From assembly GCA_017475235.1 (NCBI GenBank), contig JAFVGA010000001.1:131240-195239 (forward strand): a stretch of 64,000 bases of DNA. The letters are read 5' to 3'. Positions 6,709 through 37,181 of the stretch are shown one piece after another. This DNA comes from Eubacterium sp. (lineage in GTDB: Bacteria; Bacillota; Clostridia; Lachnospirales; Lachnospiraceae). Made by a program: the position numbers and the translations under genes. Every line of letters starts with the position of its first letter. Within the stretch, counting starts at the first letter, position 1. The notes beneath the pieces were generated by a model. That model did not search any database. It worked only from the letters and a program-made list of their open reading frames with translations, and was not told where the DNA came from.

Positions 6709-6755
6709 GAGCATCCTTTTGGATAATATAGATTTGCTCGCTACTATATCTATAT
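6709..6755 (-). ncRNA. 5' leader pseudoknot, copy C
   Basis: Minus strand. Stem 1: ATATAGAT (6755-6748) with ATCTATAT (6733-6726). Hairpin 2: ATCC-AAAA-GGAT. The loop-1 bases GAGCA (6739-6735) pair with TGCTC (6713-6709). The fold matches leaders A (15981-16028) and B (37136-37181), but the pairing bases differ in each and change together. It begins about where a transcript from the adjacent P1 promoter should start. Confidence 0.7.
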
Positions 6756-6764
6756 CACAATAAA

Positions 6765-6796
6765 AAATATACAATAAAAAATATGTCGTTTAACAA
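6765..6796 (-). promoter_or_regulatory. P1-family promoter, copy C
   Basis: TTGTTA at 6796-6791, exactly 20 bp, then ATATTT starting at 6770. Spacing and boxes match the P1 sites at 15940, 17841 and 37092. The -35-like box overlaps the T-run of the terminator of the upstream gene. Confidence 0.7.
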
Positions 6797-6822
6797 AAAA
6801 TGAGGGAGTCCGTAGACTCCCC
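6794..6822 (-). terminator. Rho-independent terminator
   Basis: Stem GGGAGTC (6804-6810) with GACTCCC (6815-6821), followed on the minus strand by a run of six T. It closes the cluster that ends with the gene at 6828-7424. Confidence 0.85.
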
Positions 6823-6827
6823 CGAAA

Positions 6828-7424
6828 TCATTCTTCCCACTGGTCAAACATGTCTTCGAAATTAAGAAACTTTTCTTCTGATATTTTCTGGCCTCCCTGC
6901 CACTTCATTCGGTAGTTCTCCCAGCCTTCTATCTCAGCAGTGCATTCTATCAGCACATCTGGATACTGTCTGGAGAGCTCTTCGAACACTGGTTCAGGAG
7001 GAGCCCATGCTGTATCAAATGATGCATATAATTCATTAGACATCATATCGACACAAGCATCTCTGGTATCCCACTTGGTCCCCCAATGCTCGGTCCGCCA
7101 GTTGTACCAGTAATCTTCGCAATCCATCATATCCTGCTGATTACTCATCAACTGAGTATTTATATTATGTCGATCGCAATATGATTTCACGTCATCAGTA
7201 TTTATACTGTCGTCATCGTTCATTAACTGAACTCTGACTATTGGCGGCTGTGGGATTACACCTTCTAATGAGAATTCATTAGTACGAATTCTTGCTGTCC
7301 GACATATATTATTAGGATAAGAACGTACAACCGACATAGTTGAAACTCTGACCTGTTTAGCAATCTTCTTAAGAGTTTCTTCCGGACCGGTTATTCTCAC
7401 CTCATTGAACGACCAATTAGGCAT
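6828..7424 (-). CDS. YubB/DUF1281 (Api92-like) protein, second copy, with DMF tail
   Basis: Start MPNWSFNEVRITG at 7424, GGAGG 8 bases upstream, overlapping the previous gene by 8 bases. The N-terminal MPNW-x-N-x-(V/L)-x-(I)-x-G and the central NW/HWGTKWD element, followed by a beta-rich aromatic half (SFDTAWAPPEPVFEELSRQYP), match the YubB ferredoxin-like/DUF1281 family found in phages and plasmids; its function is poorly known. It is a diverged tandem paralogue of 7417-8058. Only this copy ends in LNFEDMFDQWEE, a tail like the clamp-binding C-terminus of T4-type DNA polymerases. Confidence 0.8.
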   Translation of the reverse strand: MPNWSFNEVRITGPEETLKKIAKQVRVSTMSVVRSYPNNICRTARIRTNEFSLEGVIPQPPIVRVQLMNDDDSINTDDVKSYCDRHNINTQLMSNQQDMMDCEDYWYNWRTEHWGTKWDTRDACVDMMSNELYASFDTAWAPPEPVFEELSRQYPDVLIECTAEIEGWENYRMKWQGGQKISEEKFLNFEDMFDQWEE

Positions 7425-8058
7425 CTTCTTCACCTCCTTTCGGCCACCAAGCGCATTCGGTAATACCATACACTTCTGGGTCATACTCGTGTCGATATGT
7501 CTCTTTACCATTACACCATTTTATTACGACGCTACGACATCCCTCTATATCAGCATGACATCTAATATCTACATTTGGATATAAACGAGATATTTCTTTC
7601 AATACTTTATCAGGAGGACACCAGGCTGTTTCGAATTCTACAACAAGTTCATCCGGACAAGTCAGACTTACTTTGGCTTCTGATGTATCCCACTTGGTTC
7701 CCCAATTATCAACACACCATCTATACCAATAGCAAGGATTCTCCGTATAATAATGACTGAGGTCTCCGCCTTTTTCAGCACACAAAAATCGAGCTTTCTG
7801 TTCTATTAAGCCATGGCGTTCACAATATGCTATAGCCGGGCCAACTTGATCCTTCGGATCCTGATACTGAACTTTAACGATTGGTGGTGCTGGAATAAAT
7901 CCTTCTAACGAAAATTCGTTAGTATAGATCGTTGTAGTTCTATCTTTATAGTAAAAAGGAGGTTCAACCATAAAAGTAACCCTGCCTCTTTTTCTGATAG
8001 CATCTAAATCCCAATAACTACCATTTATACGGAGATGGTTGTAACAGATATTCGGCAT
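7417..8058 (-). CDS. YubB/DUF1281 (Api92-like) protein, first copy, 213 aa
   Basis: The start MPNICYNHLRI at 8058 is aligned with the paralogue's MPNW start and has GGGTGG 8 bases upstream. It shares with the downstream copy the TNEFSLEGFIPAPPIV block, the NWGTKWDT element and the FETAWCPPDKVLKEISRLYP block. It carries more cysteines than its sister and lacks the DMF tail, so the two copies have diverged in use. Its stop overlaps the next start. The biochemical role of this family is not established. Confidence 0.8.
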   Translation of the reverse strand: MPNICYNHLRINGSYWDLDAIRKRGRVTFMVEPPFYYKDRTTTIYTNEFSLEGFIPAPPIVKVQYQDPKDQVGPAIAYCERHGLIEQKARFLCAEKGGDLSHYYTENPCYWYRWCVDNWGTKWDTSEAKVSLTCPDELVVEFETAWCPPDKVLKEISRLYPNVDIRCHADIEGCRSVVIKWCNGKETYRHEYDPEVYGITECAWWPKGGEEDA

Positions 8059-8059
8059 C

Positions 8060-10498
8060 TTACACGCCACCCTTCAAAATATCCGAAAGTTTAAATGCAT
8101 CCGGATATTCTTCTTCTATGGCTTCGATGAAGTTAAGTATTTTTTCTTTTTCGTTTTTGTCCATAGAATTAAATATTACCCCCAGCCTAAATCCTACTCG
8201 TAAACTACTATTCGAGGATTCATTTGGTGTGGAGTTATAGTAGTCTATAGTGCTGTAATACTCCCTGATTAACTCTTCGGATTCTTTATTTGCAAAGTAT
8301 CTTTTTGGTATTATGAGTTTATAGCCCATATACCTCACCGTGTTGTTGTTTGTTGGGAAAGGTGTTCTAGGGAATCTTTCCCCTATCGGCGGGTAAGGTC
8401 TTTCATCTACAGGCATGTTATATTCCTCCTTCGGTGGATTTGTAGTAATATTAGCTGGAACATCTGGAGCTGGGCTCGGTCCTGCATACCCATAAGGAAT
8501 GTAATTGAACCCGTTCGGATGATTACCCGACATAACCTGTCTCACAGTTTCGTGATCGACATATGGATTATACGGATTAACAGCGAAACCTTCTACTCTT
8601 GTATAAACATTCTCGTTCGGAGTTTCAGACTTCACTGGTTCTGGAAGAACATTCTTCATAGCTTCTTCAACAACCTTTGCTGTACTTGGAGTTTCAGGTT
8701 CAGGTACAGGTTCAGGCTGGAGCCATCTAAGTGCTTCCTGTCTCTTAGAGTTTAAGAAGGCATTCAGTCTGGCATTCTGTTCTTCGTGGAGTTCTTCAAG
8801 AGTTTTAAGATCTTCATAAGTAATTCCAAGATCTGGAACTCCTCTGGATCCTACTAGTCCGGATTTTAGCATCTCTAACACCCTCTTTCCTCTTTCCGGA
8901 TCTCTGAACCTATTGATTATTTCTTGTTCGAGTCTAACATTAAGTTCATTCGAAGCAGACTTAACTGATTCTCGTACAAACTCTGACGGTTCCTTCTCCG
9001 GATCTTTCTCGAAGTTTGGATTGATCGAATTGTCGCAACCATTGAATTCTTCGATATCATTTTTAGTGATATGCGGAGAATTTATTGCCTTAACCTTCTG
9101 CTCAAATGTTGTTACTACCGGCTCCTCGACTTCCGGAAGTTCTGGGAGTGGTTCAAACATCGATAACTGAGGTTCGTTTATCTTCGTCTTAGCTATAGGA
9201 GCCGGATTTATGGTCTGTGTGCATTTTAAATGCTCGCATTCCCACTCAAATACGTATGAAGATAATTCGCACAAAACTTCACCACGATCTAATGCAGAGG
9301 AGACATCTGATCTATATGAGATGGACGGTACCTTGCCCTTGTAGTAGGAACTTAAAAAGCCCGATAACTGTGACGGAGATACATTTAATATATTAGCTAT
9401 CTGAGTATTTTTAAGTCCAAATATACTTCTGAGATCCATTATAAGTCCTGAATAGTTAAACAGATACTTCACCGCTGTTGGTGAATTTTCTTTCAGAACT
9501 TTCATGGTGTTTGTCGGGAAAATGTGTTTCTTCGGAAGTTCAGAGATAATTTTTTCTATTTGCATCTCTTCCTCCCAATTCGTAATTAACTTATACGTTT
9601 CATCGTCAACTACGTACTGTGCTCCCTCGTGTTTCCAACCGTAAATTCTCTCCTTTGCTACTGGAACAAGCTTTGCGGCCTTTAATCTAATTCTAGCTAT
9701 GCATTCGTCCCTAGCCTTTTTAGTTTCTATCTTAGCCGCATGCTCCATGAAATAGAGTACCGCATTTGTATTTACTCCTACCAGTTTAGGGACATCTCCA
9801 GCAGTATAATCATTTTCATACAATTTAGTAAGAAGACCTTCATATACCTGTAAAAACTCGGTATGAGTTTTTAACTGGGATTTTAATTTCAGCATATTAT
9901 TAGTCGGAACCAGATTATTTGGATTCAATTCTATAGACTCTGGTTCTACCTCAGGCTGTTCTGTTATTGTTGGAGCCGGAACTGACTGCTGCGGAATCTT
10001 TATATACTTGCTGTAGTCTATCGGCTCCGGCTTTAAGCATGAAACCACTTTAGCATCATAGACTTTTTCAGCTGAATCAAGTATTCTCTTATCAGCAACC
10101 AGCTCATTTACTATATTCTGATACTCAAGCAGGAATCCTTTCTCTGCTATGAGTTCACTAAACCATACGAATATAGCATGAGCGTGTATCTTGTCAAGTT
10201 TAATACTCGCTTTTGGCATCCCCACAAAACTGTTTCTAACTCTACTAAAAGCTTTTCTTTCATTTGAAGTCATTATATTGTCGTGGAGGAATGTAATATT
10301 AGAACTATTAAGCTCGAATATTTCCTTTACTATACTTTCATGAACTTTCTTATCGATAAGAAGTTCTTTGAAGTACGGGTTACCAAACCCGAAATATAAG
10401 CTGATTCCAAGTTTAGCCTTAATAAACGTAGATATACGCGCATCAGTCTTCATAAATAGGGCTAATGCGTATCTTGCTTTGGTTTCTTTTTCTGTCAT
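8060..10498 (-). CDS. Large HTH-containing, partly disordered protein, 812 aa
   Basis: The ATG at 10498 is preferred over the ATG at 10504 because GGGAGG is then 9 bases away. The N-terminal 150 residues are helical. A helix-turn-helix candidate lies around residues 365-395 (LKNTQIANILNVSPSQLSG). Linkers rich in Pro and Glu flank it and a compact C-terminal domain ends the protein. A QLSMF pentapeptide sits in a Pro/Glu-rich linker near 9155-9170, matching the bacterial beta-clamp motif QL(S/D)LF. It could be a DNA-binding replication or transcription factor; no family is recognised. Confidence 0.7.
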   Translation of the reverse strand: MTEKETKARYALALFMKTDARISTFIKAKLGISLYFGFGNPYFKELLIDKKVHESIVKEIFELNSSNITFLHDNIMTSNERKAFSRVRNSFVGMPKASIKLDKIHAHAIFVWFSELIAEKGFLLEYQNIVNELVADKRILDSAEKVYDAKVVSCLKPEPIDYSKYIKIPQQSVPAPTITEQPEVEPESIELNPNNLVPTNNMLKLKSQLKTHTEFLQVYEGLLTKLYENDYTAGDVPKLVGVNTNAVLYFMEHAAKIETKKARDECIARIRLKAAKLVPVAKERIYGWKHEGAQYVVDDETYKLITNWEEEMQIEKIISELPKKHIFPTNTMKVLKENSPTAVKYLFNYSGLIMDLRSIFGLKNTQIANILNVSPSQLSGFLSSYYKGKVPSISYRSDVSSALDRGEVLCELSSYVFEWECEHLKCTQTINPAPIAKTKINEPQLSMFEPLPELPEVEEPVVTTFEQKVKAINSPHITKNDIEEFNGCDNSINPNFEKDPEKEPSEFVRESVKSASNELNVRLEQEIINRFRDPERGKRVLEMLKSGLVGSRGVPDLGITYEDLKTLEELHEEQNARLNAFLNSKRQEALRWLQPEPVPEPETPSTAKVVEEAMKNVLPEPVKSETPNENVYTRVEGFAVNPYNPYVDHETVRQVMSGNHPNGFNYIPYGYAGPSPAPDVPANITTNPPKEEYNMPVDERPYPPIGERFPRTPFPTNNNTVRYMGYKLIIPKRYFANKESEELIREYYSTIDYYNSTPNESSNSSLRVGFRLGVIFNSMDKNEKEKILNFIEAIEEEYPDAFKLSDILKGGV

Positions 10499-10520
10499 TT
10501 CCATTAACCTCCCTAGTTAA

Positions 10521-11084
10521 TCATCCGCATGCATTCTCAGCAAGTAAGATGAATTTTGTCAAAAGTTCATGATATCGCTTGAGCGATTCAATGTTTTGTT
10601 CGTCTGGTTGTATTTTTTCATTATAGAAATATACAACCATAGACGTTGTTTTGATAAGACCGAAATCTTCAAAATTTTCCTTATCAGACTTTGGAGCCAT
10701 TCCCGGAACAAATGGTAAGATTTCTTCTGTCTTTGATAACTTGCCATTAGCATATTCCCCAGTTTCTGGATCCTTGTAGATAAAATTATCATACATGAAT
10801 GTCTTCAAACCAGCAGAGTCCGCTGCCAGCTGTATGCCGTAGTACGGAAGTATGAATTCCATATAGGCGTAATTAAACTTGGTGTCGGCGTTAGCCATTC
10901 CGTAGCCGATTACCTTATAATCCTTTCTAGCTAAATTCTGCATAACTATAGCTAGGTCATGGTCAATTTCAAAAACCGGATCTTTGAGATGACCGTTCTC
11001 AAAGACTGTGTGCTGTGTTTTGTGCTGAATGAGATTCTTTTCTACTGCGAACTCATTACATACTTTACAGTAATATAGTTTCAT
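10521..11084 (-). CDS. C2H2-like zinc-finger protein, 187 aa
   Basis: The N-terminus (YYCKVCNEFAVEKNLIQHKTQH) has the C-x2-C-x12-H-x4-H spacing of a C2H2 finger; the rest is a soluble domain of about 160 residues with no recognised fold. ATG at 11084 follows AGGAGG. It is transcribed after the terminator of the 1575-aa RNA polymerase gene and ahead of the HTH protein, so it may be a DNA- or RNA-binding accessory protein. Confidence 0.75.
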   Translation of the reverse strand: MKLYYCKVCNEFAVEKNLIQHKTQHTVFENGHLKDPVFEIDHDLAIVMQNLARKDYKVIGYGMANADTKFNYAYMEFILPYYGIQLAADSAGLKTFMYDNFIYKDPETGEYANGKLSKTEEILPFVPGMAPKSDKENFEDFGLIKTTSMVVYFYNEKIQPDEQNIESLKRYHELLTKFILLAENACG

Positions 11085-11111
11085 TCCGAAACCTCCTTAA
11101 ATAAAAATATT

Positions 11112-11133
11112 GAGGGAGTCTTTTGACTCCCTC
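11112..11133 (-). terminator. Hairpin terminator after the 1575-aa beta gene
   Basis: Perfect 9-bp stem GAGGGAGTC (11112-11120) with GACTCCCTC (11125-11133), 4-base loop, followed on the minus strand by an A/T-rich stretch with a five-T run. The T tract is interrupted, so termination may be partial. Confidence 0.7.
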
Positions 11134-11161
11134 TCGTACATAATAATAATATATTACTATT

Positions 11162-14100
11162 TTACTTTTTGGACTCGTCCTCTTCTCTTTGAAGTTTAGT
11201 GATTTCTGGATGCAGGTATTCGTGAATATCGTAACAGTCTTTAGTTGCAACACCCATGATTTCTTTAACTTGTCTATCCAATTCGATAAGACCTTTAGAG
11301 ATCATACCAATATAGATATTAGAAAGAATCATACGTCCATTGTTTGAGTTGATTGAAGTAACGAGATCTATCTTTTCATTAGGTCTATATGTAGAATATG
11401 GTTCTTTACCCTTAGGAATAATACCGGAGCTTACACACTTATTACCAGCATTAACAACCATCTTTTCTCCAGAACCAAAGTCTGAAATATATTCTATATA
11501 GAATTCTATAAGAACACCATCTTCTACATTTTTAAGTTTACCGGTATTCTCAAGTTTGTAGTTAGATCTTACAGTCTTAGCTTTTTCTGGATCATACTTC
11601 TCCATAAGCTTCTTCTTATCGTTAATCTTCTTCTCGTATTCAGAAACAAACTTCTTCAATGTAGGAGACATTTCATTGAGTTCACAAGTACGAAGCACAT
11701 GTATATCAACTATGTCTCCAGTAACCTTAGCTTTCTTAGGAATTCTACCAAGTTCATTGATTTCATCTGTATCGTTTACGAGAGACTTCATAAGAGCATT
11801 AGCATCTTCATCATCGAAAGCATTCTGGAACACTAAGAGGTTCTGGCCTTCTTCTACATGGTCTCCTACTTTCACTACATTGTAGATGCTAGATTGTTTA
11901 TTTAAAACTACATCTACACATACGGTAACTTTACGAGCCATAGCTTTAGCACAATAGTCTGAGTTAATACCGGAGTCTTCATATCCTTCATCGGTAATAA
12001 GCATAGCAACTTTAGCAAGAGTACCACGATTCATTGTAGGATTATCATCATAACCGAAATCTCTGGTGTACATTTTCTTGTTATAAGCTACGATACCGTT
12101 CTCTTTAAAGGTCTGTCCCTCTTTAAGATCGCAGTCAAGTTTAAGTGACAAGAAGAAACCACCATCAGAATTCTTATATGTCTGAGGAGTCAATTCTACC
12201 ACTTCCGTAGAACCATCTTTATACTGAAGAATAATATATTCATCGGTTTTCTTAAGCACTTTACCAGCCTGCTTAGCCTTATAGTTAAATACATCTGGAG
12301 CTAAATAAGGAATAGCATCATCGGCACCAGTAGTTACAAGACAAGGGTCACCTGCTTCTGATAATACAGTATGTTTAGAGTTCTGGATAAAGCCCATTGA
12401 AAGTCTGAATGGGTCATCCTTAGTAGAAATCATAGGCATGATTGCTTCTGATATACATAATGAATTTGTTACATTCATATTATCCTGAGCATCTTTACCG
12501 GTCTTAATGTAACCTCTTGATGAGTCTACATTCATATTGATTGTAGTCTGACGGTTTACACCAACGTTTCCTGCGAAACCTGTGGACATAGCGAGATTAT
12601 TAAGCATTGAATCATCATAAGTTCTCTTATCAAGACCGTATGAACGTTCTGAGTTCATACCTGATAATCCCTTGAATGATACGGTAGCAGCTGTTTCTAC
12701 ATATGATAAATCTGTATTAGTAGAAAGGTCTGATGTAGTATTATCAGAGAGGATAGAATCTATAATAGCCGAACGCTTAATTGTCATAGAAGCTTTACCG
12801 GTCTTCTTTAACTTGATTCTATAATCTGAATAAGACTTAGCTAAGCACTTATAAGTATGAGCCGCTACAAGTTCGTTAGTTCTAAATCTATTGCCAGACA
12901 AGTCTGTATGTCTATTAAACTTAGAGTCCGCTAAAAGGTTATTAGCATAAATAAGCTGTTCGACATAATCAGTAGGGAGATCGTATACAGGGCAAACTCT
13001 TTCGGTGATAGGGTCCACCATAAGGTCATAGAAGTTATCAAGACCGTCTGCTTTAATTCTACCACCAAAGATATCTAAGAAGTCAATCCACATACTTCTA
13101 TTATCTATCTCAGTAATAGAATAGTCTTCTGTATTACATTCCTTAAGACCGTTCATAAGAAGTGAACTGCTATAGTTTATAAGATAAGAAATATATCCAT
13201 CCTTAAATTTGATTCTGTCGAACGCATCCTTATCAAACTTAGTATTCTTATCTTCTATAGTAAATATAACTCCTGCTTTCTTAAGTACTGAAGTTAATCC
13301 TTCACTATAAGCTGCTACTACAATAAGCGGAATCTTTGTATTAAGGATACTTGCCTTAGAATACTTATATCTTACACCAGAATTTGTTGTAGGGTATATC
13401 TCAGCGAAGTCTTTATCATACTTGGAAAGTACATCTCTTATAGCTGCGGCTAATGTGCTAGAGCTATATAATTCAATAACCTTGTCATTCCACTGCGATA
13501 CTGTGCGGTTATTCCAAACAAGGATCTTACCAGTACGTAATGTACCGAATATAATACAATGCCCTTTAAGACTCTTATCGATTTTATCACCATACTTAGA
13601 AATGAGCTCTTCTTGGTTGAATACAATTTCACCGGCAGAGAATTTAATTCTACTATAGTTAGCGCCAAGATCTACATAATCTATAGGAAGATCATATACT
13701 TCAGCAAGTCTTGAGTTATCACCGGCTTCAGCTTTAATTTTAGATGATTCAGGAAGCTTACCTAAAGTCTTCATAATTCTATCGGCAATTACGTTAGACT
13801 TACCAGCTGAACTACCATATGGTGTAATGAATATCTTATTGTAGTTGGAAGTAATCTGACAAGTATCTAAGTCAGTCTTTACTATAGGAATATTCATGAG
13901 CTGACCATTGATGGTTTTATCATTGCCTCTGAGCTTCATGAAACGGGTTCCAGGGATAAACTTAGGAATGTCAAATACAAGATTGAATCTTGTACCGATA
14001 GCATCTTCCATTTTAACTGTCCATGTCTCGATAAGGTCTTCTGAGTTAGAAGTATCTTCTACATCAATAGTAAGAACTGATACAGGATACTTTCTTGTTC

Positions 14101-15889
14101 CGAAGAACTTGATGATATTAGCGATATCAGCATCTACGTTATATGCTTTTTCAAAGTTCATATAACTCATATGCTTCCACTCATCATTGATAGAGTTTAT
14201 TGGGAGTGAAGTTTCAGGAAGAGTTTCTTCCGTCTTTGCTGATTCTGCATCTTTAAGTAAATCCTTTACCGGAACACCCTTAACTTTAGCTTCTTTGAAT
14301 TTATCGTTAAGAGTATTTATACGAGCGGCTCTAGCTGGAGTAATGTCAATGGCATCTGAAGATTGATTGGATAAGTCATTGATGAGGTTAGCCATATCCT
14401 GATCAGATTCATTGCCTGGGTCAGCTAACTTATCTACAGCATTATCTACAGTGTCAGAAGTCTTTGATACTGTTTTGATTGCAGCATCAAGTCTTTCTTC
14501 ATCATCTTCATAAGCACCACGCTCTTCTTTTGCTATAGCCTCGTCTTCTTCCTCTTCATCTTCCGATCTCTTAGGAGAATCCATATCATCTACATCACCA
14601 ACTAATCCTCGCTTGAATTTGATATTGGTGTTGTTCTGGATATTATTGTAGATAGTTGTAGCTATAGCATCTTCTGAGTCCTTAGTAACGTCTTCGTCAT
14701 CTTCTATTACAGAACCAGAAAGAAGTCTATTGATATTAGTCATGAACTTGACTGTATGAGTATTCTCGATAGCAGCCATATCCATTCTGAAATAGCCATT
14801 CTTACCGATAAATAGCACATCATACCCCGCCCATAAATCAGCAAGATGATTTGCTCTATGAGTCTTTAAAAGTCTATAGATACAAGAGATAGGATTGATG
14901 TCTTGCTTGTAATCTATAATATCAACTTCTTTAGTATTAACCCATCCGTCAACAGGAATGAATATGGTCTTCTTATTATAGTTTGAGAGTCTGTGGTCTG
15001 TTGTAAGTCTTGATAAGTAATCTAAGAAAAGATTTACGCCTCTATCAAGTTTAAGAGTATTATTCTGTCTGAACAGACTTACATAGTATTGTGTGTCAAA
15101 GAAGAGGTTTCTCAGCTTATATCTTTCTAATGTGAGATATGTATACTTTATCCAAGGATTGGTAGTTTTCACTTCACCATAGATATCAAGAATCTGTTTA
15201 TTGGTTTTCATACGATCGTTATAAATCATCTTCTTGATTCTTGTATTATACTGAGAATCAGCTTCATTTATAATATCATCCGCAATATATATACATTCAC
15301 GGTTAGAAATCAAACCGAATTCATTAAGAGTAAATTCAGATGGTTTATTTCCGAATATATCGAAGTTTGTAGCTTCCTTGATTTCCTCTACTGGCTTCAT
15401 ATATTTACGGAATCTATTATTGTCGCCTACTTTAATATCCTTGATATGGAACTTGTCTATAGCTTTAAGGATATTATTAGCGAGTTCTTTCTCTTTAGTT
15501 TCATCTACATAGTTAAACTTTTTGATAGCATCTCTTACATGAGCCTCATCATTAAGAGGATACTTTCTTTCTTCCGGTAAACCGAATGTAGAATCCTTTA
15601 GTTTATTTCGATCTTTAGTTTCAAGCTTATCTTCGTTTACTACTTCCCCAGATATAGAAGCAGATTCAGCAGTGATAATTCTATTGACAGCTTTCTCCAC
15701 ATAGTAAGATTCAAACTGTTTTCTATTGATACAATAAGGTATATTCATCATAGCATTTGATGATTCCTTATTCGGCGTTACAAGGAATATGACACTTCCA
15801 TGTTTCGAATCTTTCTTGTTCGAAGGAATAAGAAACTTCATATTCTTAGAATAGACTTTCATATTCTTCGCCTCATGAACACAAATCAT
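11162..15889 (-). CDS. RNA polymerase beta-like subunit, single chain, 1575 aa
   Basis: Matches bacterial RpoB at spaced landmarks. The rifampicin-region equivalent (MSTGFAGNVGVNRQTTI) is near residue 1097. ISTKDDPFRLSMGFIQNSK near 1155 corresponds to EHDDANRALMGSNMQRQ. The hybrid-binding block GEKMVVNAGNKCVSSGIIPKG is near 1475, followed by NSNNGRMILSNIYIG. It ends about 60 residues later and lacks the clamp-proximal C-terminal module; a detached candidate is encoded at 36206-36934. The N-terminal part (over 1000 residues) is highly diverged, with an acidic insertion around residues 435-490. Start at 15889 after GGAGG; P2 promoter at 15913-15928. It is one of two beta subunits here, as in phages with separate virion and non-virion enzymes. 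Confidence 0.85.
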   Translation of the reverse strand: MICVHEAKNMKVYSKNMKFLIPSNKKDSKHGSVIFLVTPNKESSNAMMNIPYCINRKQFESYYVEKAVNRIITAESASISGEVVNEDKLETKDRNKLKDSTFGLPEERKYPLNDEAHVRDAIKKFNYVDETKEKELANNILKAIDKFHIKDIKVGDNNRFRKYMKPVEEIKEATNFDIFGNKPSEFTLNEFGLISNRECIYIADDIINEADSQYNTRIKKMIYNDRMKTNKQILDIYGEVKTTNPWIKYTYLTLERYKLRNLFFDTQYYVSLFRQNNTLKLDRGVNLFLDYLSRLTTDHRLSNYNKKTIFIPVDGWVNTKEVDIIDYKQDINPISCIYRLLKTHRANHLADLWAGYDVLFIGKNGYFRMDMAAIENTHTVKFMTNINRLLSGSVIEDDEDVTKDSEDAIATTIYNNIQNNTNIKFKRGLVGDVDDMDSPKRSEDEEEEDEAIAKEERGAYEDDEERLDAAIKTVSKTSDTVDNAVDKLADPGNESDQDMANLINDLSNQSSDAIDITPARAARINTLNDKFKEAKVKGVPVKDLLKDAESAKTEETLPETSLPINSINDEWKHMSYMNFEKAYNVDADIANIIKFFGTRKYPVSVLTIDVEDTSNSEDLIETWTVKMEDAIGTRFNLVFDIPKFIPGTRFMKLRGNDKTINGQLMNIPIVKTDLDTCQITSNYNKIFITPYGSSAGKSNVIADRIMKTLGKLPESSKIKAEAGDNSRLAEVYDLPIDYVDLGANYSRIKFSAGEIVFNQEELISKYGDKIDKSLKGHCIIFGTLRTGKILVWNNRTVSQWNDKVIELYSSSTLAAAIRDVLSKYDKDFAEIYPTTNSGVRYKYSKASILNTKIPLIVVAAYSEGLTSVLKKAGVIFTIEDKNTKFDKDAFDRIKFKDGYISYLINYSSSLLMNGLKECNTEDYSITEIDNRSMWIDFLDIFGGRIKADGLDNFYDLMVDPITERVCPVYDLPTDYVEQLIYANNLLADSKFNRHTDLSGNRFRTNELVAAHTYKCLAKSYSDYRIKLKKTGKASMTIKRSAIIDSILSDNTTSDLSTNTDLSYVETAATVSFKGLSGMNSERSYGLDKRTYDDSMLNNLAMSTGFAGNVGVNRQTTINMNVDSSRGYIKTGKDAQDNMNVTNSLCISEAIMPMISTKDDPFRLSMGFIQNSKHTVLSEAGDPCLVTTGADDAIPYLAPDVFNYKAKQAGKVLKKTDEYIILQYKDGSTEVVELTPQTYKNSDGGFFLSLKLDCDLKEGQTFKENGIVAYNKKMYTRDFGYDDNPTMNRGTLAKVAMLITDEGYEDSGINSDYCAKAMARKVTVCVDVVLNKQSSIYNVVKVGDHVEEGQNLLVFQNAFDDEDANALMKSLVNDTDEINELGRIPKKAKVTGDIVDIHVLRTCELNEMSPTLKKFVSEYEKKINDKKKLMEKYDPEKAKTVRSNYKLENTGKLKNVEDGVLIEFYIEYISDFGSGEKMVVNAGNKCVSSGIIPKGKEPYSTYRPNEKIDLVTSINSNNGRMILSNIYIGMISKGLIELDRQVKEIMGVATKDCYDIHEYLHPEITKLQREEDESKK

Positions 15890-15912
15890 TTACGATAACC
15901 TCCTTTGAGAAT

Positions 15913-15928
15913 ATTAATGAAATGTTTC
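15913..15928 (-). promoter_or_regulatory. P2-family promoter for the 1575-aa beta gene
   Basis: GAAAC-ATTTC-ATTAAT on the minus strand, 20-40 bases ahead of the gene start. It shares the GAAAC, 5 bp, TATAAT-like layout of the other P2 sites. Confidence 0.65.
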
Positions 15929-15939
15929 GCTAGGGTATT

Positions 15940-15971
15940 TTGTTAAACTGGTTTATTATAATTACATATTA
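15940..15971 (+). promoter_or_regulatory. P1-family promoter, copy A
   Basis: TTGTTA (15940-15945), 20 bp, ATATTA from 15966, continuing ATTATTGTGACATAGAT. The continuation is nearly identical at copy B (37118 onward) and similar at copy C. Transcription is expected to start around 15978-15982, at the foot of the leader pseudoknot. Confidence 0.75.
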
Positions 15972-15980
15972 TTATTGTGA

Positions 15981-16028
15981 CATAGATACATAATGGGTAT
16001 AATCTATGTTGTCCAAAGGGACACCCAT
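15981..16028 (+). ncRNA. 5' leader pseudoknot, copy A
   Basis: Stem 1: CATAGAT (15981-15987) with ATCTATG (16002-16008). Hairpin 2: TGTCC (16010-16014) with GGACA (16019-16023). Loop-1 ATGGG (15993-15997) pairs with CCCAT (16024-16028). A further hairpin, ATCCTATG / CATAGGAT (16037-16044 / 16062-16069), lies before the ribosome site. Copies B and C keep the fold with different bases. Confidence 0.75.
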
Positions 16029-16096
16029 ATTCCAAATCCTATGATACTGGCAAGTGGCTGGCATAGGATGTAAGTATAGAAAGGCAGGTCATTATT

Positions 16097-16408
16097 ATGA
16101 CAGCAAGAGCTACTAAATTCGATCTCAGAACAGTAATCAACTCAAACAAGAAGAACGCAAAAATTATTCTTGCAGTTCTCTGCGACCTCTGCAGACACGG
16201 ATACATCCACTATAACTGGGGATGGAGAAACCGCGAAAATGAAAAGTTCGATGAAGATCAGATGACAGAAATTTCAAATCTTCTCTGCAAGAAAGTAGAA
16301 AGATTTGTAAACCTCTTCGGAGAAAGAGAAAGCAATATCGGAAGACTCAGAGTTACATGTAATCTTGATAAGCACGAAATCTGGATAAGCGAAACAATAG
16401 CAGAATAA
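16097..16408 (+). CDS. Small P1-driven protein, 103 aa
   Basis: An isolated rightward gene between leftward operons, with its own P1 promoter, pseudoknot leader and terminator. ATG at 16097 follows AAAGGCAGGT. It is basic at the N-terminus (MTARATKFDLRTVIN), with a CDLCRHGY cysteine/histidine cluster and a Trp-rich stretch (HYNWGWRN). No family recognised. The layout suggests early, high-level expression; a host-takeover role is inference. Confidence 0.8.
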   Translation: MTARATKFDLRTVINSNKKNAKIILAVLCDLCRHGYIHYNWGWRNRENEKFDEDQMTEISNLLCKKVERFVNLFGERESNIGRLRVTCNLDKHEIWISETIAE

Positions 16409-16425
16409 AAACAGAAGCAAACAAG

Positions 16426-16460
16426 TAAGGCGGACATTAATTTGTCCGCCTTATTTTTTA
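16426..16460 (+). terminator. Rho-independent terminator
   Basis: Stem TAAGGCGGACA (16426-16436) with TGTCCGCCTTA (16443-16453), followed by seven T. It lies between the 103-aa gene and the convergent nrdG. Confidence 0.9.
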
Positions 16461-27141: not shown

Positions 27142-27180
27142 AAAAAATAAGCCGTATGGAGAAACCCCATACGACTTATT
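27142..27180 (-). terminator. Rho-independent terminator
   Basis: Long stem from ATAAGCCGTATGG (from 27148) and CCATACGACTTAT (to 27179), followed on the minus strand by six T. It ends the single-gene unit 27204-27947. Confidence 0.9.
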
Positions 27181-27203
27181 ACAACCAAGCGTATTTTAAT
27201 TTA

Positions 27204-27947: not shown

Positions 27948-28014
27948 TGTGTTATTCCTCCTAAGTAAATATAATCTAGAGATATTACTATCTCTGACAG
28001 TGCTATAATATATA

Positions 28015-28030
28015 ATTACAATAAGGTTTC
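28015..28030 (-). promoter_or_regulatory. P2-family promoter
   Basis: GAAAC-CTTAT-TGTAAT on the minus strand, about 70 bases before the 247-aa gene; the leader contains a GAGATA / TATCTC hairpin (about 27990-28005). Confidence 0.65.
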
Positions 28031-28043
28031 CTTAATTGTATTT

Positions 28044-30338: not shown

Positions 30339-30374
30339 AAGCATCACTCCTTTCTACGAGTATAATATATAAGT

Positions 30375-30974: not shown

Positions 30975-30989
30975 ATCATAATCCTCCTA

Positions 30990-31022
30990 GAAAAAATGAA
31001 GCCAGAGCGAACCCTGGCTTCT
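30990..31022 (-). terminator. Rho-independent terminator after the beta C-half gene
   Basis: Stem GAAGCCAG (30998-31005) with CTGGCTTC (31014-31021), followed on the minus strand by ATTTTTT. Confidence 0.9.
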
Positions 31023-31026
31023 ATAA

Positions 31027-33303: not shown

Positions 33304-33335
33304 CTTGCTTCATTCCTTTCTGGAAAATATTATAT

Positions 33336-33362
33336 AAGAGGACGACATCTTATCGTCCTCTT
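33336..33362 (-). terminator. Hairpin terminator after the RecA-like gene
   Basis: Perfect 10-bp stem AAGAGGACGA (33336-33345) with TCGTCCTCTT (33353-33362), followed on the minus strand by an A/T-rich tract ending in four T. Confidence 0.75.
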
Positions 33363-33381
33363 ACTTTTATATAATATACAA

Positions 33382-34692
33382 TTATGCTTCTGCTTCAGCA
33401 AGTTCAGCTTCAGCCGCTCTGTTGAATTCTTCAAGTTCAGCAATCTTCTGTCTGATATCATCGTTCATATTAGTGGTATCAATACGTTCGATTTCTTCTC
33501 TTGCGTGCAGTGAGTTAGCAAATACCGTAGCACAAGTTGCTATAAAGGCATTGTAGAAGTTTGGGTTTTCTTTGAGAAGTCCAAGGAACTTCTTCTGAGA
33601 GAACTTGATATCTTCGAATCCTTTAAGATACAAGAAAGCACCTGCACCGCCTATCATATCATAATTCTTAAGAGATATAAGGAGTGAAAGCATCGCATTG
33701 AAACCGAGTTGCTGTTCAAATATGAGAGTACATACTGGATCTCTCTTGGCTATACTCGTTCGTGATTTAAGGATACAGATATCAGCAAATACACCTGTAA
33801 CTCCTAGAGCTTCCATTTCTTTAGTCTTTCGAGAGTCTTCAATTCTAAAGACATTGTTAGATAGATAGAATGGTGTCTTACCACCTGGGGTTGTTTCACC
33901 CTGATCGAGATAGATATTAGCAGCTTTCTTCTTCTGCATTGGGTTAATAGATACATCGTCTGTAATATGGTTAATTACAAGGAGTATGATATTAGCTGAC
34001 TTACAGATATTAACCAGAGCTCTGAATATTCTGGCAAGAGTCTTAGCCGCCGCAGTCTGTCCCATCTGTCCACCAACCTCTGATGCTTCAGCCATATCTT
34101 CAGGAGCGATAACTGCAAGTGAGTCGAGTATATATACTGTCGGTTCAAGCTTCATGATATGCTGTCCAGTGCATGGATCGACCAAACCAGTATCATAGAG
34201 ATAGTCTTCCATGTGTGCTACTTTCCAGTCATGGATGACCTTAATCTGTTTAAAGAATGACTCTGATGTGATGTGAGTGTTTCTCATCTTGAGTCTATTT
34301 CTTGTCTCCTGAGGAGTCATGTTAAGGAGAATATCATTACGCTTACCAGTAATACCGCCTTCGATACTATCTTCAAAGATAGAAGCTGTCTTGAATGGTC
34401 TGATGATATTACCCGCAACCTGTTTAGCAATAGTAGATTTACCACAACCGGTACGTCCGATAAACATATTGATCGAACCATCTACGATTCCAATGGAGTC
34501 ATATCCACCAGTGATACGACCCTCATCATCATATAAATCAATTCTCTGACCGAGATGATAATCCAAATCCATGAAACCAGTTGGATACTGTACATCATAT
34601 GTAGCTTCCTGATTAAGTCTCGGGTCTTTAGAGAATTCTTTGTCTGTAGCATATAAATTTCTTATAGCGTTAGCTAAGGTCATATCTGCCAT
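33382..34692 (-). CDS. RecA/UvsX-like recombinase, 436 aa
   Basis: An ATP-dependent strand-exchange type core. YPTGFMDLDYHLG precedes the Walker A GRTGCGKST (residues 79-87), and Walker B is VYILDSLAV (near 195). A RecA-type segment follows: SANIILLVINHITDDV, then a GGKTPFYLSNNVFRI stretch. A helical, Ala/Glu-rich C-terminus may be a coiled coil. It is encoded 6 bases after the tubulin-like gene in one operon. A DnaB-like or KaiC-like ATPase is an alternative, but the conserved loop region and length suit UvsX/RecA. Confidence 0.78.
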   Translation of the reverse strand: MADMTLANAIRNLYATDKEFSKDPRLNQEATYDVQYPTGFMDLDYHLGQRIDLYDDEGRITGGYDSIGIVDGSINMFIGRTGCGKSTIAKQVAGNIIRPFKTASIFEDSIEGGITGKRNDILLNMTPQETRNRLKMRNTHITSESFFKQIKVIHDWKVAHMEDYLYDTGLVDPCTGQHIMKLEPTVYILDSLAVIAPEDMAEASEVGGQMGQTAAAKTLARIFRALVNICKSANIILLVINHITDDVSINPMQKKKAANIYLDQGETTPGGKTPFYLSNNVFRIEDSRKTKEMEALGVTGVFADICILKSRTSIAKRDPVCTLIFEQQLGFNAMLSLLISLKNYDMIGGAGAFLYLKGFEDIKFSQKKFLGLLKENPNFYNAFIATCATVFANSLHAREEIERIDTTNMNDDIRQKIAELEEFNRAAEAELAEAEA

Positions 34693-34698
34693 ACTATA

Positions 34699-35973
34699 TT
34701 ACTCCTTTATAAATACATTCTTTCCACCAACACTTAGGTTATGCTTTGGAGCCTGAACATCAGCTGATGTTTCTGTTTTAGTGTTAGGATTTGAACTTCT
34801 TCTTGATCTTCCACCTCTACGTGTAAGAACATCATTTGTTTCTTCTGATACTTCTGTGGATACTGAATCAAGAACACTTCCAGAGTTTCTCTTTCTCTTT
34901 CTTGGTTCTATTGATGATTCTACAGAAAGATTCTTGATTTCATCAAAGAAGCTCGAGTTGTTTCCTGAAACCTTAAGGCGTTCAGTCTCAATAAGAGCCT
35001 TTAAGTCTTTAGCTTCAGATATAGGAATATTAAGACCTGAAATGATTATACGCACATATTCTTCATTACCATCGTTCTGATGATGGAAGAATGTCTTTGG
35101 TGAGAAATCACCGAAGATTCTCTTCTTAAGAGTAGAGAAATCTGTTCCTATATAATCAAGCTTTGTATCTGAAATATTCATGAAGATACCAAGCATTGTA
35201 TGATTGCTTGTAAGATCAGAGTCGATATCAAATGAGATAGAGTTAGCAATTGACGCCATAATAGCATCATTGAACTGTTTTGTATCCTTGATCTTAGCAA
35301 GATGTATTGTGTCTACAAACATGAGACCATCGTTTGAACAGAGGCTAAGATGGTCAGCGTAGTCAATATTCTGATCTGAGTCAATTATACCATATCCCAT
35401 GATAGCCTTAAGCTTATCAAGAACAATTTCATTTACATAAGACTCAATCTTAATAAAGTTATTGATATCCTCGATGTCATTCTTCTTAGCATTGCTGATA
35501 GGAAGTAAAGCTATGCTCTCTGAGATATCTGAAAGATATGCAAGAGTATTCTCCATTCCAGATACATCATCATTGAAGCCCAGTACCGGAATATTTATTA
35601 CTGGGATATTCATTTCTTCATCAATGTATCTGCAGAGTAATGGAGCTGCACCTGAACCTGTACCTCCCTCAGTACTATTGATTACAACTACTTCTTCGAT
35701 AGACTCAGGAATACGTTCATCGAGTTCATCAGCATTAGCCTTAAGCCACTGAAGAATAAGCTGTTTAGAAGCTTCCCTGTTCTTAGCACAGCCATAATCA
35801 GCTTCTTCATCATTGCTGAATATAAGAGCGTCTGACTGATACTTAAGTGGAATGTCTTTCTTTGTTGTGTTGATGAGTAATGCATTCTCCTTAGGAACTA
35901 TTCTTTCTTCAATAGCCTGAATAAGGATCTTGTTACCACATCCGCCAATACCGATTACATAAAAATTTTTCAT
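34699..35973 (-). CDS. FtsZ/tubulin-like GTPase (PhuZ/TubZ type), 424 aa
   Basis: The tubulin-superfamily signature is complete: an N-terminal glycine loop (VIGIGGCGNKI, residues 6-16), the nucleotide loop GGTGSG (103-108) in EGGTGSGAAP, and the T7 synergy loop NIDYAD (202-207), with both acidic residues needed for GTP hydrolysis on polymerisation. The last 90 residues form a Ser/Arg-rich tail with basic clusters (PRKRKRN, RRGGRSRRSS), which could bind DNA or regulate filaments. In phiKZ-like phages PhuZ centres the phage nucleus; in phage c-st TubZ partitions DNA. Start at 35973 after GGGAGG. Which role applies here is unknown. Confidence 0.88.
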   Translation of the reverse strand: MKNFYVIGIGGCGNKILIQAIEERIVPKENALLINTTKKDIPLKYQSDALIFSNDEEADYGCAKNREASKQLILQWLKANADELDERIPESIEEVVVINSTEGGTGSGAAPLLCRYIDEEMNIPVINIPVLGFNDDVSGMENTLAYLSDISESIALLPISNAKKNDIEDINNFIKIESYVNEIVLDKLKAIMGYGIIDSDQNIDYADHLSLCSNDGLMFVDTIHLAKIKDTKQFNDAIMASIANSISFDIDSDLTSNHTMLGIFMNISDTKLDYIGTDFSTLKKRIFGDFSPKTFFHHQNDGNEEYVRIIISGLNIPISEAKDLKALIETERLKVSGNNSSFFDEIKNLSVESSIEPRKRKRNSGSVLDSVSTEVSEETNDVLTRRGGRSRRSSNPNTKTETSADVQAPKHNLSVGGKNVFIKE

Positions 35974-35997
35974 TCTTTATTCCTCCCAAAATTAAAA

Positions 35998-36023
35998 TTC
36001 TCTAGGCATCTCTACCTAGAGAA
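35998..36023 (-). terminator. Rho-independent terminator
   Basis: Perfect stem TTCTCTAGG (35998-36006) with CCTAGAGAA (36015-36023), followed on the minus strand by TTTTAATTTT. It lies just after the 39-aa gene and before the tubulin-like gene. Confidence 0.8.
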
Positions 36024-36029
36024 CTTTGT

Positions 36030-36149
36030 TTACTTTTTGTCTTCGTCTTTTTCTTCTTCATCATTTTCATTAACTGGTGTTACAGAGCAGTTAAATGAGT
36101 CTACTGGAAAAGCCTGTTCAACTATGATTGACTGTTTTTCGTCTGCCAT
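36030..36149 (-). CDS. Very small acidic protein, 39 aa
   Basis: An ATG at 36149 with a strong AAGGAGGT site 6 bases upstream opens a 39-codon frame ending TAA at 36030, followed directly by a terminator. The protein begins MADEKQSIIVEQAF and ends in an acidic/lysine run (NDEEEKDEDKK). The well-placed ribosome site and terminator support a real gene despite its size. Function unknown. Confidence 0.75.
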   Translation of the reverse strand: MADEKQSIIVEQAFPVDSFNCSVTPVNENDEEEKDEDKK

Positions 36150-36205
36150 AGAACATACCTCCTTTTATAGTATTACTTTAAAGTTCTCGATAATGTACTA
36201 TTGTA

Positions 36206-36934
36206 CTATTCTCTCTCGGTCTTCTTCTGCTTTTCTGCTACGGTATAAGGAGTCATATATTCCTTATTAATCATATTGGTGTATAAGCAAGAACCGATAA
36301 GATATGCACTTACAGTATTCTTAGAAATCTGATTTGCAGATTCTCTGGATACATCTTTCTGGGAATACATACCTGTAGTATTGATCTGAGTGAGCATTTG
36401 CTGTTTAGCTTCCATATCATCAGCCATTTCATGGAAGAGATAATCAATTGTATCATTCATATTGAACATGATTAAGGCTTCCGCTTCACGGTCTGATGTA
36501 AGTCCGGCTTTATCATGACCAGTAAGTCTACCTGTTTTAGTTTCTCTTTGTGTAGCTTCCGATCCATATGAGTTCTTCTTCGAAACCATCTGTTTCATTG
36601 ATACGAGATTGATGTATGCTATAATGCACTGCTTTGTACCAATAGCTTTGCCATCTTTATCTTCATATCTATATGGTTCAAATATCTCTTCAAATAACGG
36701 TATACCCAGTGCTTTATATGAGTTTGTAATATCTTCACATCTAGGTTCACCCTTATCTTTAAACGGTGCGATCTGATGTCTGAATGGGAGCTTGCCTTTA
36801 ACGAATTTCAAGAACTGCTCATCAGACATTCCGGCAAATAATTCTTTATAGAAGTTAGTATTAGCTTTTGATGGGTCTAGTGCATCAAAGAACTTATACA
36901 CTAACTCTTCTGCTTTCTTACGTTTAGCGTTCAT
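36206..36934 (-). CDS. Probable detached C-terminal module of an RNA polymerase beta subunit, 242 aa
   Basis: Residues about 105-190 (YINLVSMKQMVSKKNSYGS, then TGHDKAGLTSDREAEALIMF) resemble the beta C-terminal segment MLKLxHMVDDKxHARSTGPYS ... GGQRFGEMEVWALEAYGA in order and spacing. The 1575-aa beta lacks exactly this module, while the split beta has its own (31027-33303), so this protein may complete the larger subunit. The alignment is by eye and weak in identity. ATG at 36934 with GAGGTG upstream; the N-terminal 90 residues are helical. Confidence 0.55.
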   Translation of the reverse strand: MNAKRKKAEELVYKFFDALDPSKANTNFYKELFAGMSDEQFLKFVKGKLPFRHQIAPFKDKGEPRCEDITNSYKALGIPLFEEIFEPYRYEDKDGKAIGTKQCIIAYINLVSMKQMVSKKNSYGSEATQRETKTGRLTGHDKAGLTSDREAEALIMFNMNDTIDYLFHEMADDMEAKQQMLTQINTTGMYSQKDVSRESANQISKNTVSAYLIGSCLYTNMINKEYMTPYTVAEKQKKTERE

Positions 36935-36975
36935 ATAGAATCACCTCTTTATATAGAAGTTTAACAAAGGAAAGG

Positions 36976-37065
36976 AGAGGGAGGAAATCCTCCCTCTGAT
37001 AACACACAGTATCCAGAGCTGTGAGATTCGCGTCTGTATGCTTTAACTTTAGCATAGCTCCGGAT
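36976..37065 (-). ncRNA. Candidate small structured RNA with terminator
   Basis: The minus strand folds with a 10-bp closing stem (37056-37065 with 37011-37020, one G-U pair), an inner hairpin ATGCT / AGCAT (37051-37055 / 37038-37042), then a terminator-like stem AGAGGGAGG / CCTCCCTCT (36976-36984 / 36989-36997). No gene on the minus strand ends nearby. A TTGTAC, 20 bp, ATATAA element upstream (about 37110-37080) loosely fits P1. It may serve as the 5' leader of the 242-aa gene. Confidence 0.45.
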
Positions 37066-37091
37066 TACTTAAAAGTTATATGATTTATATT

Positions 37092-37123
37092 TTGTTAAAA
37101 TGTACAATTTTGATTGCATATTA
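37092..37123 (+). promoter_or_regulatory. P1-family promoter, copy B
   Basis: TTGTTA (37092-37097), 20 bp, ATATTA from 37118, then TTATTATTGTGACATAGA, nearly identical to copy A apart from three extra bases. Confidence 0.75.
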
Positions 37124-37135
37124 TTATTATTGTGA

Positions 37136-37181
37136 CATAGAATCATAAAGGGCATATTCTATGTTGTCCATAAGGGCGCCC
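37136..37181 (+). ncRNA. 5' leader pseudoknot, copy B
   Basis: Stem 1: CATAGAAT (37136-37143) with ATTCTATG (37156-37163). Hairpin 2: GTCC (37166-37169) with GGGC (37174-37177). Loop-1 GGGC (37150-37153) pairs with GCCC (37178-37181), where copy A has GGGT with ACCC. Confidence 0.72.

Follow-up and report, generated by a model that had tools for sequence, protein, structure and literature searches.

What is the structure that opens several short transcripts in this stretch of DNA, and what might it do for the genome that encodes it? A sequence-only reading of the window (the whole 64,000-nt stretch analysed) had proposed that three leaders share a covarying pseudoknot at their 5′ end. The window is part of a 245-kb contig (C26) from an AR9/PBS1-like jumbo phage, in which the AR9 virion RNA polymerase (vRNAP) subunits, those of the non-virion polymerase (nvRNAP), both multisubunit enzymes, and the terminase were all matched by tblastn. 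Positions are given in window coordinates, except that copies outside the window (10610, 30070 and 35863) are numbered along C26.

Six pseudoknots begin at predicted early transcription starts

All three folds are present at the places claimed (counted here from the predicted +1) and with the helices proposed, and a descriptor scan located three additional copies beyond the window, all on the + strand (C26:10610, C26:30070 and C26:35863), so that the contig has six knots rather than three, each of 47–48 nt (Table 1). The fold consists of an outer helix (P1), a hairpin (P2) and a pseudoknot in which the P1 loop pairs with the bases directly 3′ of P2. Sequence and covariation together show an H-type pseudoknot that is compact and holds a hairpin inside its third loop; the predicted initiating G opens a 9-bp outer helix, and there is no linker between P1 and P2 or between P2 and the pseudoknot strand. 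P1 is 9 bp or longer in every copy when a G+1·U wobble is counted, and its first base is in every case a G that is able to pair. Across the six copies P1 varies, whereas four unpaired A residues (columns 20, 23, 45 and 47) and most of P2 never change; loop 1 is unconserved in copy 6756 and in the relative G178. P1 together with P2 is the minimum-free-energy (MFE) fold of all three window copies (the pseudoknot is not modelled in), with MFE z-scores of −1.66, −2.26 and −1.60, below −2 in one of the three.

In AR9, early promoters used by the virion RNA polymerase follow the rule TATATTAT-6N-G+1 and late (nvRNAP) promoters the rule AACA-6N-TA/G. As in AR9, both motifs are recognisable in C26, where the late motif is enriched upstream of genes. 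By the early rule, the predicted +1 is the first base of P1 in 6/6 copies. Mismatches to the TATATTAT core at the 6N spacing number 0, 1, 1, 2, 3 and 5, the rule being fitted with at most one mismatch by only three of the six copies; the copy with five mismatches at 6N has one at 7N. The worst-fitting early promoter is that of copy 35863, which has a sigma-70-like TTGTTA-17-TAGAAT upstream instead, and two sigma-70-like hexamer pairs lie in the promoter region of copy 37134; across these regions the number of sigma-70-like matches stays close to the shuffled mean, no more than two standard deviations above it. TTGTTA as the −35 of a host sigma-70 promoter was rejected: TTTGTTA directly abuts an upstream terminator hairpin in copies 10610, 35863 and 6756, and the sigma-70 scan calls TTGTTA a −35 only before copy 35863, where it may be one.

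Table 1. Predicted features of the three transcripts in the window that begin with the pseudoknot (PK, pseudoknot pairing)
Feature	Position	Strand	Details
Early (vRNAP-type) promoter core CATATTAT	15965..15972	+	1 mismatch to TATATTAT, 6N before G+1
Pseudoknot leader	15979..16026	+	P1 15979-15987/16002-16010, P2 16011-16014/16019-16022, PK 15995-15998/16023-16026
103-aa ORF	16097..16408	+	No Pfam/NCBIfam match above cut-off
Terminator-like hairpin, then T run; ends one-gene transcript	16423..16456	+	Terminator scan
Early promoter-like ATTATTAT	37120..37127	+	2 mismatches, 6N spacing
Pseudoknot leader	37134..37181	+	P1 37134-37142/37157-37165, P2 37166-37169/37174-37177, PK 37150-37153/37178-37181
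Late (nvRNAP-type) promoter motif AACA-6N-TA	37186..37197	+	At +53
101-aa ORF	37222..37527	+	No Pfam/NCBIfam match above cut-off
Terminator-like hairpin and T run	37553..37584	+	By eye; absent from terminator scan
Early promoter-like TATATTTT	6764..6771	-	7N before G+1: 1 mismatch; 5 at 6N
Pseudoknot leader	6709..6756	-	P1 6756-6748/6733-6725, P2 6724-6721/6716-6713, PK 6739-6736/6712-6709
Late promoter motif AACA-6N-TA	6693..6704	-	At +53
106-aa ORF	6321..6641	-	No Pfam/NCBIfam match above cut-off
Terminator-like hairpin and T run	6257..6290	-	By eye; absent from terminator scan

P1 and the pseudoknot covary

A strict descriptor of the fold matched C26 six times, at precisely the six copies, and 40 dinucleotide shuffles of the contig gave a mean of 0.33 matches and a maximum of two. 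Across the six copies 93 of the 96 cells are paired, and both sides change at 11 of the 16 pairs, which bears out the covariation that had been claimed; copy 6756 is off by one in the pseudoknot columns of alignments A2 and A5 and was scored there as unpaired, with no copy dropped. The covariation score was reached by none of 500 shuffles. When the 3′ strands were redealt among the copies, P1 stayed intact in all six copies in 2 of the 720 possible orders and the pseudoknot in 4, against 120 for P2, which thus adds little covariation of its own. The covariance-model search that had been suggested separated the copies from the rest of their genome, the six scoring at least 72.5 bits and the best hit elsewhere in C26 19.1 bits. 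A pseudoknot test run leader by leader at early promoters was significant for 0/10 C26 leaders, two of the six knot copies included, 4-bp knots being short for such a test; the leaders that it flagged in other phages (two in G178 that are false promoter overlaps, one in G145 and one in G153) were not counted as knots.

Small, unrelated genes follow the knots

The three window transcripts were described as carrying small genes, and this extends to all six copies, the proteins behind them being small and mutually unrelated (BLASTP, E 0.1). The leaders are about 80–118 nt long, with ~34–70 nt between the end of the fold and the start codon, and the fold stays clear of the ribosome binding site. 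A terminator-like hairpin stands behind the short single gene in five of the six by eye, two of those five being listed by the terminator scan. The gene behind C26:30070 is a predicted AcrIII-1 anti-CRISPR ring nuclease: it has a Pfam STIV_B116-like match above cut-off, and its product has the catalytic His of the family, in a Gly-His aligned to 2x4i (Gly-Ala in 6scf). H47A is described as the inactive form of AcrIII-1 (PMC7213978).

Two other phage contigs have homologous or analogous leaders

The fold matches no family in the public RNA catalogue searched, in line with the sequence-only reading: no Rfam family was found at gathering threshold in the window, and none over the fold at nine loci with E up to 5. 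Relatives were taken as the best 80 of 192 contigs by terminase search; model R1 was run on 46 of the 80 and on three named phages, and covariance model R2 on all 80 and the same three. The suggested search of related phages bore fruit in one contig, the distant G178, where four homologous, weak-scoring leaders keep P1 and the pseudoknot and G+1 pairs with C. Three of them score 61–63 bits, being themselves part of R2; the fourth, outside R2, scores 25.1 bits (E 0.011) and has different pseudoknot pairs. P2 was not demonstrated in G178, where P2-like pairs overlap the P1 and pseudoknot strands. MAFFT misaligned C26 with G178, and the R1-fitted alignment A5 was used instead; it is biased towards P1 and P2, not towards the pseudoknot, which R1 lacks, and it excludes the fourth G178 copy, whose P2 region differs.

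Only weak matches were otherwise found among the best 80 of 192 relatives; those in L127, L128, L129, L130, L132 and L192 were not counted, L127–L130 and L132 after inspection by eye. No such fold was found in AR9 (R1, E up to 5) or, at E 0.1 with R2, in three other reference phages, R1 giving one weak match in SA1 (E 0.41). No match was found in three metagenome-assembled genomes with a related terminase, and matches were confined to the window's own genome both in 144 genomes around the host (R1) and in 391 genomes of the host's class (R2). The second of two exact patterns had no match in viral contigs, and genome contigs also had none; the sole match in viral contigs lies within a coding sequence and was judged to be chance. 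A literature search covering mainly sources outside subscription journals turned up no description of leaders of this kind in jumbo phages.

Analogous leaders are present in G144, where 6/21 early leaders carry GCATC within their first 30 nt together with GATGC between nt 30 and 90, and the remaining 15 have neither at those places. In these six, P1 starts from +1 or +2 and GCATC can pair with GATGC (individual p 0.005–0.065).

Early leaders of C26 are structured, and those of related contigs vary

The mean MFE z-score was −3.35 for 13 C26 early leaders (one a knot copy) and −0.93 for 32 late leaders, compared with −1.26 for 31 other C26 upstream stretches. In contrast to C26, AR9 shows no unusual structure in its early leaders (mean −0.74 for the 15 of 34 that were long enough to be scored). 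The other early-promoter candidates of C26 have simple hairpins or none, and several of the simple hairpins leave 6–8 free 5′ nucleotides, which is too many for strict end-blocking.

In 76 leaders from five phages, a group picked after the leaders had been seen, mean pairing over the first 4 nt peaks at the predicted +1 (0.54). Helices of at least 5 bp from the first or second base were equally frequent at pretended starts from −1 to +2 (30, 31, 26 and 31 of 76). The excess of 5′ helices comes mainly from G145 (13/17) and G144 (6/12), and not from C26 (5/17), G178 (5/14) or G180 (2/16). In G153 (part) pairing of the first bases falls below that of shuffled sequence (0.22 vs 0.42), and G167 (part) and G150 have no excess of 5′ pairing. 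A helix-start histogram that includes upstream DNA has only a small peak at +1 (11 vs about 6), and self-complementary promoters confound it. What the other phages have in common is the position of the helix, not its sequence.

Possible roles of the knot

The likeliest role, to which we tentatively give a little less than even weight, is that a 5′-terminal knot on short early mRNAs blocks 5′-end-dependent decay. The enzyme making these mRNAs would most likely be the phage's injected virion RNA polymerase, because the promoters resemble the early promoters of AR9. With the triphosphate end paired and tied into a knot, host enzymes that need unpaired 5′ nucleotides would be hindered, first RppH-type pyrophosphohydrolases and after them RNase J or an enzyme like RNase E. 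With the knot at the 5′ end and the terminator hairpin at the 3′ end, short messages encoding small takeover or counter-defence proteins may outlast host mRNA early in infection. In two of the six copies a late promoter lies immediately downstream of the knot (for copy 37134, the motif at +53), and its transcripts would lack the knot. The knot resembles 5′-terminal stabilising stem-loops, such as those of ompA and papA, in placing a helix at the very 5′ end of the leader; unlike them, it has a pseudoknot and an embedded hairpin and is present in six copies in one phage. RppH and RNase E are described as requiring a single-stranded 5′ end, which accounts for the stabilising effect of 5′ structures, and 5′-terminal stem-loops are expected to hinder both (PMC3997798). 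A plain hairpin would be enough for protection, and the conserved unpaired A residues and P2 therefore hint at something more specific.

The main rival explanation, an unlikely one in our estimate, is that the knot is recognised by a specific RNA-binding protein, of phage or host origin, acting on the translation or stability of a six-gene early regulon. The restriction of the knot to six C26 leaders, among early candidates with simple hairpins or none, is consistent with such a target, as is the invariance of the unpaired A residues and most of P2 beside a changeable P1. As a precedent, the T4/T2 gene 32 leader is described as having a pseudoknot upstream of the ribosome binding site, bound by protein in T4 (PMC3014915). 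Unlike gene 32, a single gene bound by its own product, the C26 knot precedes six unrelated genes, begins at the predicted +1 and has the extra P2 hairpin. One autoregulator cannot cover six unrelated small ORFs, which takes out simple autoregulation and fits a general mRNA-level role better, and the fold ends well before the start codon, clear of the ribosome binding site.

Nascent RNA can affect polymerase in cis, as in put-type RNA elements. That the knot acts in this way on the virion RNA polymerase (in pausing, escape or read-through) is improbable: its extreme 5′ position and the strong structure of early, but not late, C26 leaders would suit such a role, but the transcripts mostly look like single short genes with a terminator-like hairpin, which leaves little to read through, and helix position without common sequence in other phages also argues against it. 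A ligand-sensing riboswitch with a small pseudoknot aptamer is very improbable; the topology resembles that of preQ1-II, an H-type knot whose third loop holds a hairpin, and some unpaired bases are invariant, but unlike preQ1-II the fold has no Rfam match, conserved ligand pocket or linked gene that could be seen, the genes are unrelated with no common expression platform seen, and loop 1 is unconserved in copy 6756 and G178. Least probable of all is a duplicated promoter cassette with incidental pairing and no selected RNA function, which the confinement of all six copies to one genome with a common promoter region would suit, but which is opposed by the two-sided changes in P1 and the pseudoknot, the low chance rate of the descriptor (0.33 per genome) and the G178 homologues that keep both helices, one with different pairs.

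Implications

A broader form of the 5′-end protection reading, somewhat unlikely as a whole, is that some AR9-like jumbo phages cap their earliest transcripts with RNA alone: the virion polymerase would start exactly at the base of a fast-evolving 5′ helix, knot or loop-loop fold, phage mRNAs would resist 5′-dependent decay from the first minutes on, and the knot, as the most elaborate form, would mark small takeover or counter-defence genes such as AcrIII-1. If protection is the role, a group of giant phages would guard its first mRNAs by structure built into the RNA itself, as an alternative to the protein shielding described for phiKZ RNAs (PMC13282480), and the promoter choice of the virion polymerase would be tied to mRNA life span. 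The knot would then be a compact natural 48-nt candidate stabiliser, and it would help to pick out early phage genes whose function is unknown, likely with anti-defence genes among them.

Six covarying leaders in an AR9-like phage contig

Homologues of the AR9 virion and non-virion RNA polymerase subunits, terminase, topoisomerase II, ligase and other proteins were found by tblastn in C26, a contig of 245,370 bp. The window spans C26:131240-195239, and the contig belongs to a 1.45-Mb bin that is 76% complete. Because of these homologues, and because Takahashivirus, a group of Bacillus phages, includes the closest annotated phages (PBS1, AR9 and Goe21, with BpSp for the terminase; ~27% identity for the polymerase subunit and ~35% for the terminase), C26 is by homology a contig of an AR9-like jumbo phage that was binned into a bacterial genome.

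The sequence-only reading had described three pseudoknotted leaders with one fold in the window. All three were present as described, and a descriptor scan located three further copies in C26, all on the plus strand (table). A covariance model of the six copies (R1), used for the genome search which that reading had proposed, scored them at 72.5-82.7 bits, with the rest of C26 at 19.1 bits or below. A strict descriptor (a P1 of 8 bp, a single base, a P2 of 4 bp closing a 4-nt loop, then at once the pseudoknot strand) returned exactly these six from C26 and 0-2 matches (mean 0.33) from each of 40 dinucleotide shuffles of the contig. Across the six copies 93/96 cells are paired, and the bases said to change together do so, with compensatory changes in 11/16 pairs: 7/8 in the outer helix P1, which holds the bulk of the evidence, 3/4 in the pseudoknot and 1/4 in the P2 hairpin. 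The covariation score was reached by 0/500 shuffles, and the further-pair-type count by 26/500.

P2 abuts P1, and the pseudoknot strand abuts P2, without a linker in either place. Strands beyond the P1 loop sit one base later in the window copies, and the copy at 6756 has its 5′ pseudoknot strand at 18-21. The unpaired bases that never vary among the six copies are all A and fall in loop 1 and the P2 loop. Leaders are ~80-118 nt long and precede ORFs of 48-106 aa. By eye, a hairpin and T run follow 5/6 of the C26 genes; a consensus terminator scan listed the ones after 16408 and after the 30155-30469 gene but not the remaining three, and gave none behind the sixth gene. Upstream of three leaders, TTTTGTTA or TTTGTTA is the T run of a preceding terminator-like hairpin.

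Rfam had no matching family, in line with the claim that no described RNA class fits, and a literature search found no report of such leaders in jumbo phages. Phage leader pseudoknots and 5′ stabilisers are already known kinds; the knot is, by sequence and covariation, a new structured RNA family.

Features of the knot leaders and their surroundings (helix positions count from the predicted +1)
Feature	Position	Strand	Remark
Knot copy	window 15979	+	
Knot copy	window 37134	+	
Knot copy	window 6756	-	
Knot copy	C26:10610	+	
Knot copy	C26:30070	+	
Knot copy	C26:35863	+	
P1	1-9/23-31		three copies outside window
P2	32-35/40-43		three copies outside window
Pseudoknot	17-20/44-47		three copies outside window
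Virion polymerase beta-like gene	window 11162-15889	-	divergent from 15979 leader
Late-type AACA-6N-TA	window 15915-15926	-	just upstream of virion polymerase beta-like gene
T run of terminator-like hairpin	window 6802-6823	-	upstream of leader
T run of terminator-like hairpin	C26:10543-10567	+	upstream of leader
T run of terminator-like hairpin	C26:35791-35819	+	upstream of leader
104-aa ORF	G000:C26:30155-30469 (L010:10255-10569)		behind C26:30070 copy

Promoters and downstream genes

An excerpt of PMC5312081 gives the AR9 early promoter as AAATATATATTAT-(6N)-G+1 and the late promoter as AACA-(6N)-TA/G. With the TATATTAT core placed 6N from G, the six copies have 0, 1, 1, 2, 3 and 5 mismatches; the copy with five has one mismatch at 7N, and at the copy with three a sigma-70-like pair is present instead. 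Upstream of C26 genes, sense-strand matches to the late motif AACA-6N-TA[AGT] number 40, against 5.4 expected and 14 in antisense (19,082 bases of sense upstream stretches, by our own gene calls). The motif lies at +53 in 2/6 copies (93-base stretches scanned behind each fold); since about one is expected behind six folds at the upstream rate, these two are ordinary late promoters and not a special feature. With a late motif so placed, these two genes may have both an early and a late promoter, the knot being carried on early transcripts only.

The proteins encoded downstream (n = 16; six in C26 and, in the related phage contigs G178 and G144, four and six) showed no mutual resemblance by BLASTP (E 0.1). 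Five C26 proteins, all except the 48-aa ORF at 10691, were tested against family models. The 104-aa ORF has a Pfam STIV_B116-like match above cut-off (E 2.3e-7), and matches PDB sequences 2x4i and 6scf, which we take to be a SIRV1 protein, 2j6b, and STIV B116 itself (2j85, E 0.008), with Gly-His and Arg-Leu-x-Glu-Gly stretches kept in the alignment. It is predicted to be an AcrIII-1 (STIV_B116-like) cA4 ring-nuclease anti-CRISPR. A passage of PMC7213978 describes STIV B116 as an early-expressed AcrIII-1 gene, and the AcrIII-1 family is equated with DUF1874 in one of PMC7293037. The other four had no Pfam or NCBIfam match above cut-off, and PADLOC gave them only a weak DndF match (E 0.01).

Leaders in related phages

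Searching viral_contigs by terminase turned up a single relative at 59%, G144; an alignment-based search gave 192 relatives, of which the best 80 were kept. In G178 (124,892 bp; terminase 31%), R1 scored three leaders at 18.7-21.2 bits; their elements follow the same order as in C26, namely promoter, P1, loop with AGCACAT, TCCA..AAGGA and GTGC. Since P2-like pairs in G178 overlap both P1 and the pseudoknot, only the latter two were counted as shared. In the R1-fitted alignment of nine, two-sided change is seen in 11/16 pairs and 138/144 cells are paired, with no shuffle as high on the covariation score. A fourth G178 leader, outside the model extended with those three (R2), scored 25.1 bits (E 0.011) by R2 and has the pseudoknot TGCATC/GATGCA in place of GCACATC/GATGTGC. 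In six G144 leaders P1 begins at +1 or +2, and a GCATC in the loop could pair with a GATGC downstream; of the 21 early leaders in G144, 6 contain both motifs and 15 contain neither. Because the pair is invariant and these six leaders resemble one another in sequence, the pairing is a candidate one. In viral_contigs, sequence patterns for the two leader types, that of G178 and that of G144, hit no contig other than these two.

Structure at the 5′ ends of early leaders

For early leaders behind an exact TATATTAT-6N-G and long enough for an MFE z, the mean z was -3.35 in C26 (n = 13), -2.65 in G144 (n = 9), -2.33 in part of G153 (n = 10), -2.11 in G180 (n = 7), -1.91 in G145 (n = 16), -1.42 in G178 (n = 12), -1.34 in part of G167 (n = 6), -0.93 in G150 (n = 2) and -0.90 in G173 (n = 1). 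Control means were -0.93 for C26 late leaders (n = 32), -1.26 for other C26 upstream stretches (n = 31) and -0.74 for AR9 early leaders (15/34 long enough). Averaged over the first four bases, pairing peaks at the predicted +1, at 0.54, in C26, G144, G145, G178 and G180 (76 leaders), whereas the remaining four contigs (42 leaders) have 0.19 at that position; this grouping was chosen after the leaders had been seen. Moving the supposed start to -1, +2 or +3 left helices from the first or second base about equally common, and their excess came mainly from G145 and G144. Given the low contigs, the similarity of shifted starts and the source of this excess, 5′-terminal structure is a trait of some of these phages, not all; the exact +1 register is shown for the knot copies, not for early leaders at large.

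Simple hairpins start other C26 early leaders (234498, 142392, 123212, 55246 and 21189 (-)), 0-6 nt from +1, and 4/5 are closed by an AAAA loop. A repeated early leader in G145 (64770, 94159, 208204 (+)) has a +1-flush helix GAATAG/CTATTC or GATTAG/CTAATC, mismatched in copy 208204, and a downstream hairpin CTCC/GGAG or CTGC/GCAG. Early leaders of G176 (L203, L211, L219) open with GATAAAG and have CTTTATC or CTTTTATC immediately ahead of the AUG, which would allow base pairing of the 5′ end with the translation start.

Function of the knot

According to part of PMC3997798, RppH and RNase E need single-stranded ends and 5′ stem-loops stabilise mRNA; protection of the 5′ end would require transcription to begin at +1 and that base to be paired. 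A title among the references of that paper states that Bacillus subtilis RppH recognises a second-position G; the second base is A in five copies and T in one. A regulon bound by a protein at the knot ranks next as a role, after 5′-end protection, which is the most likely. That unpaired bases are conserved is an argument for a fold that does more than simply block the end, or for these bases holding its tertiary structure together.
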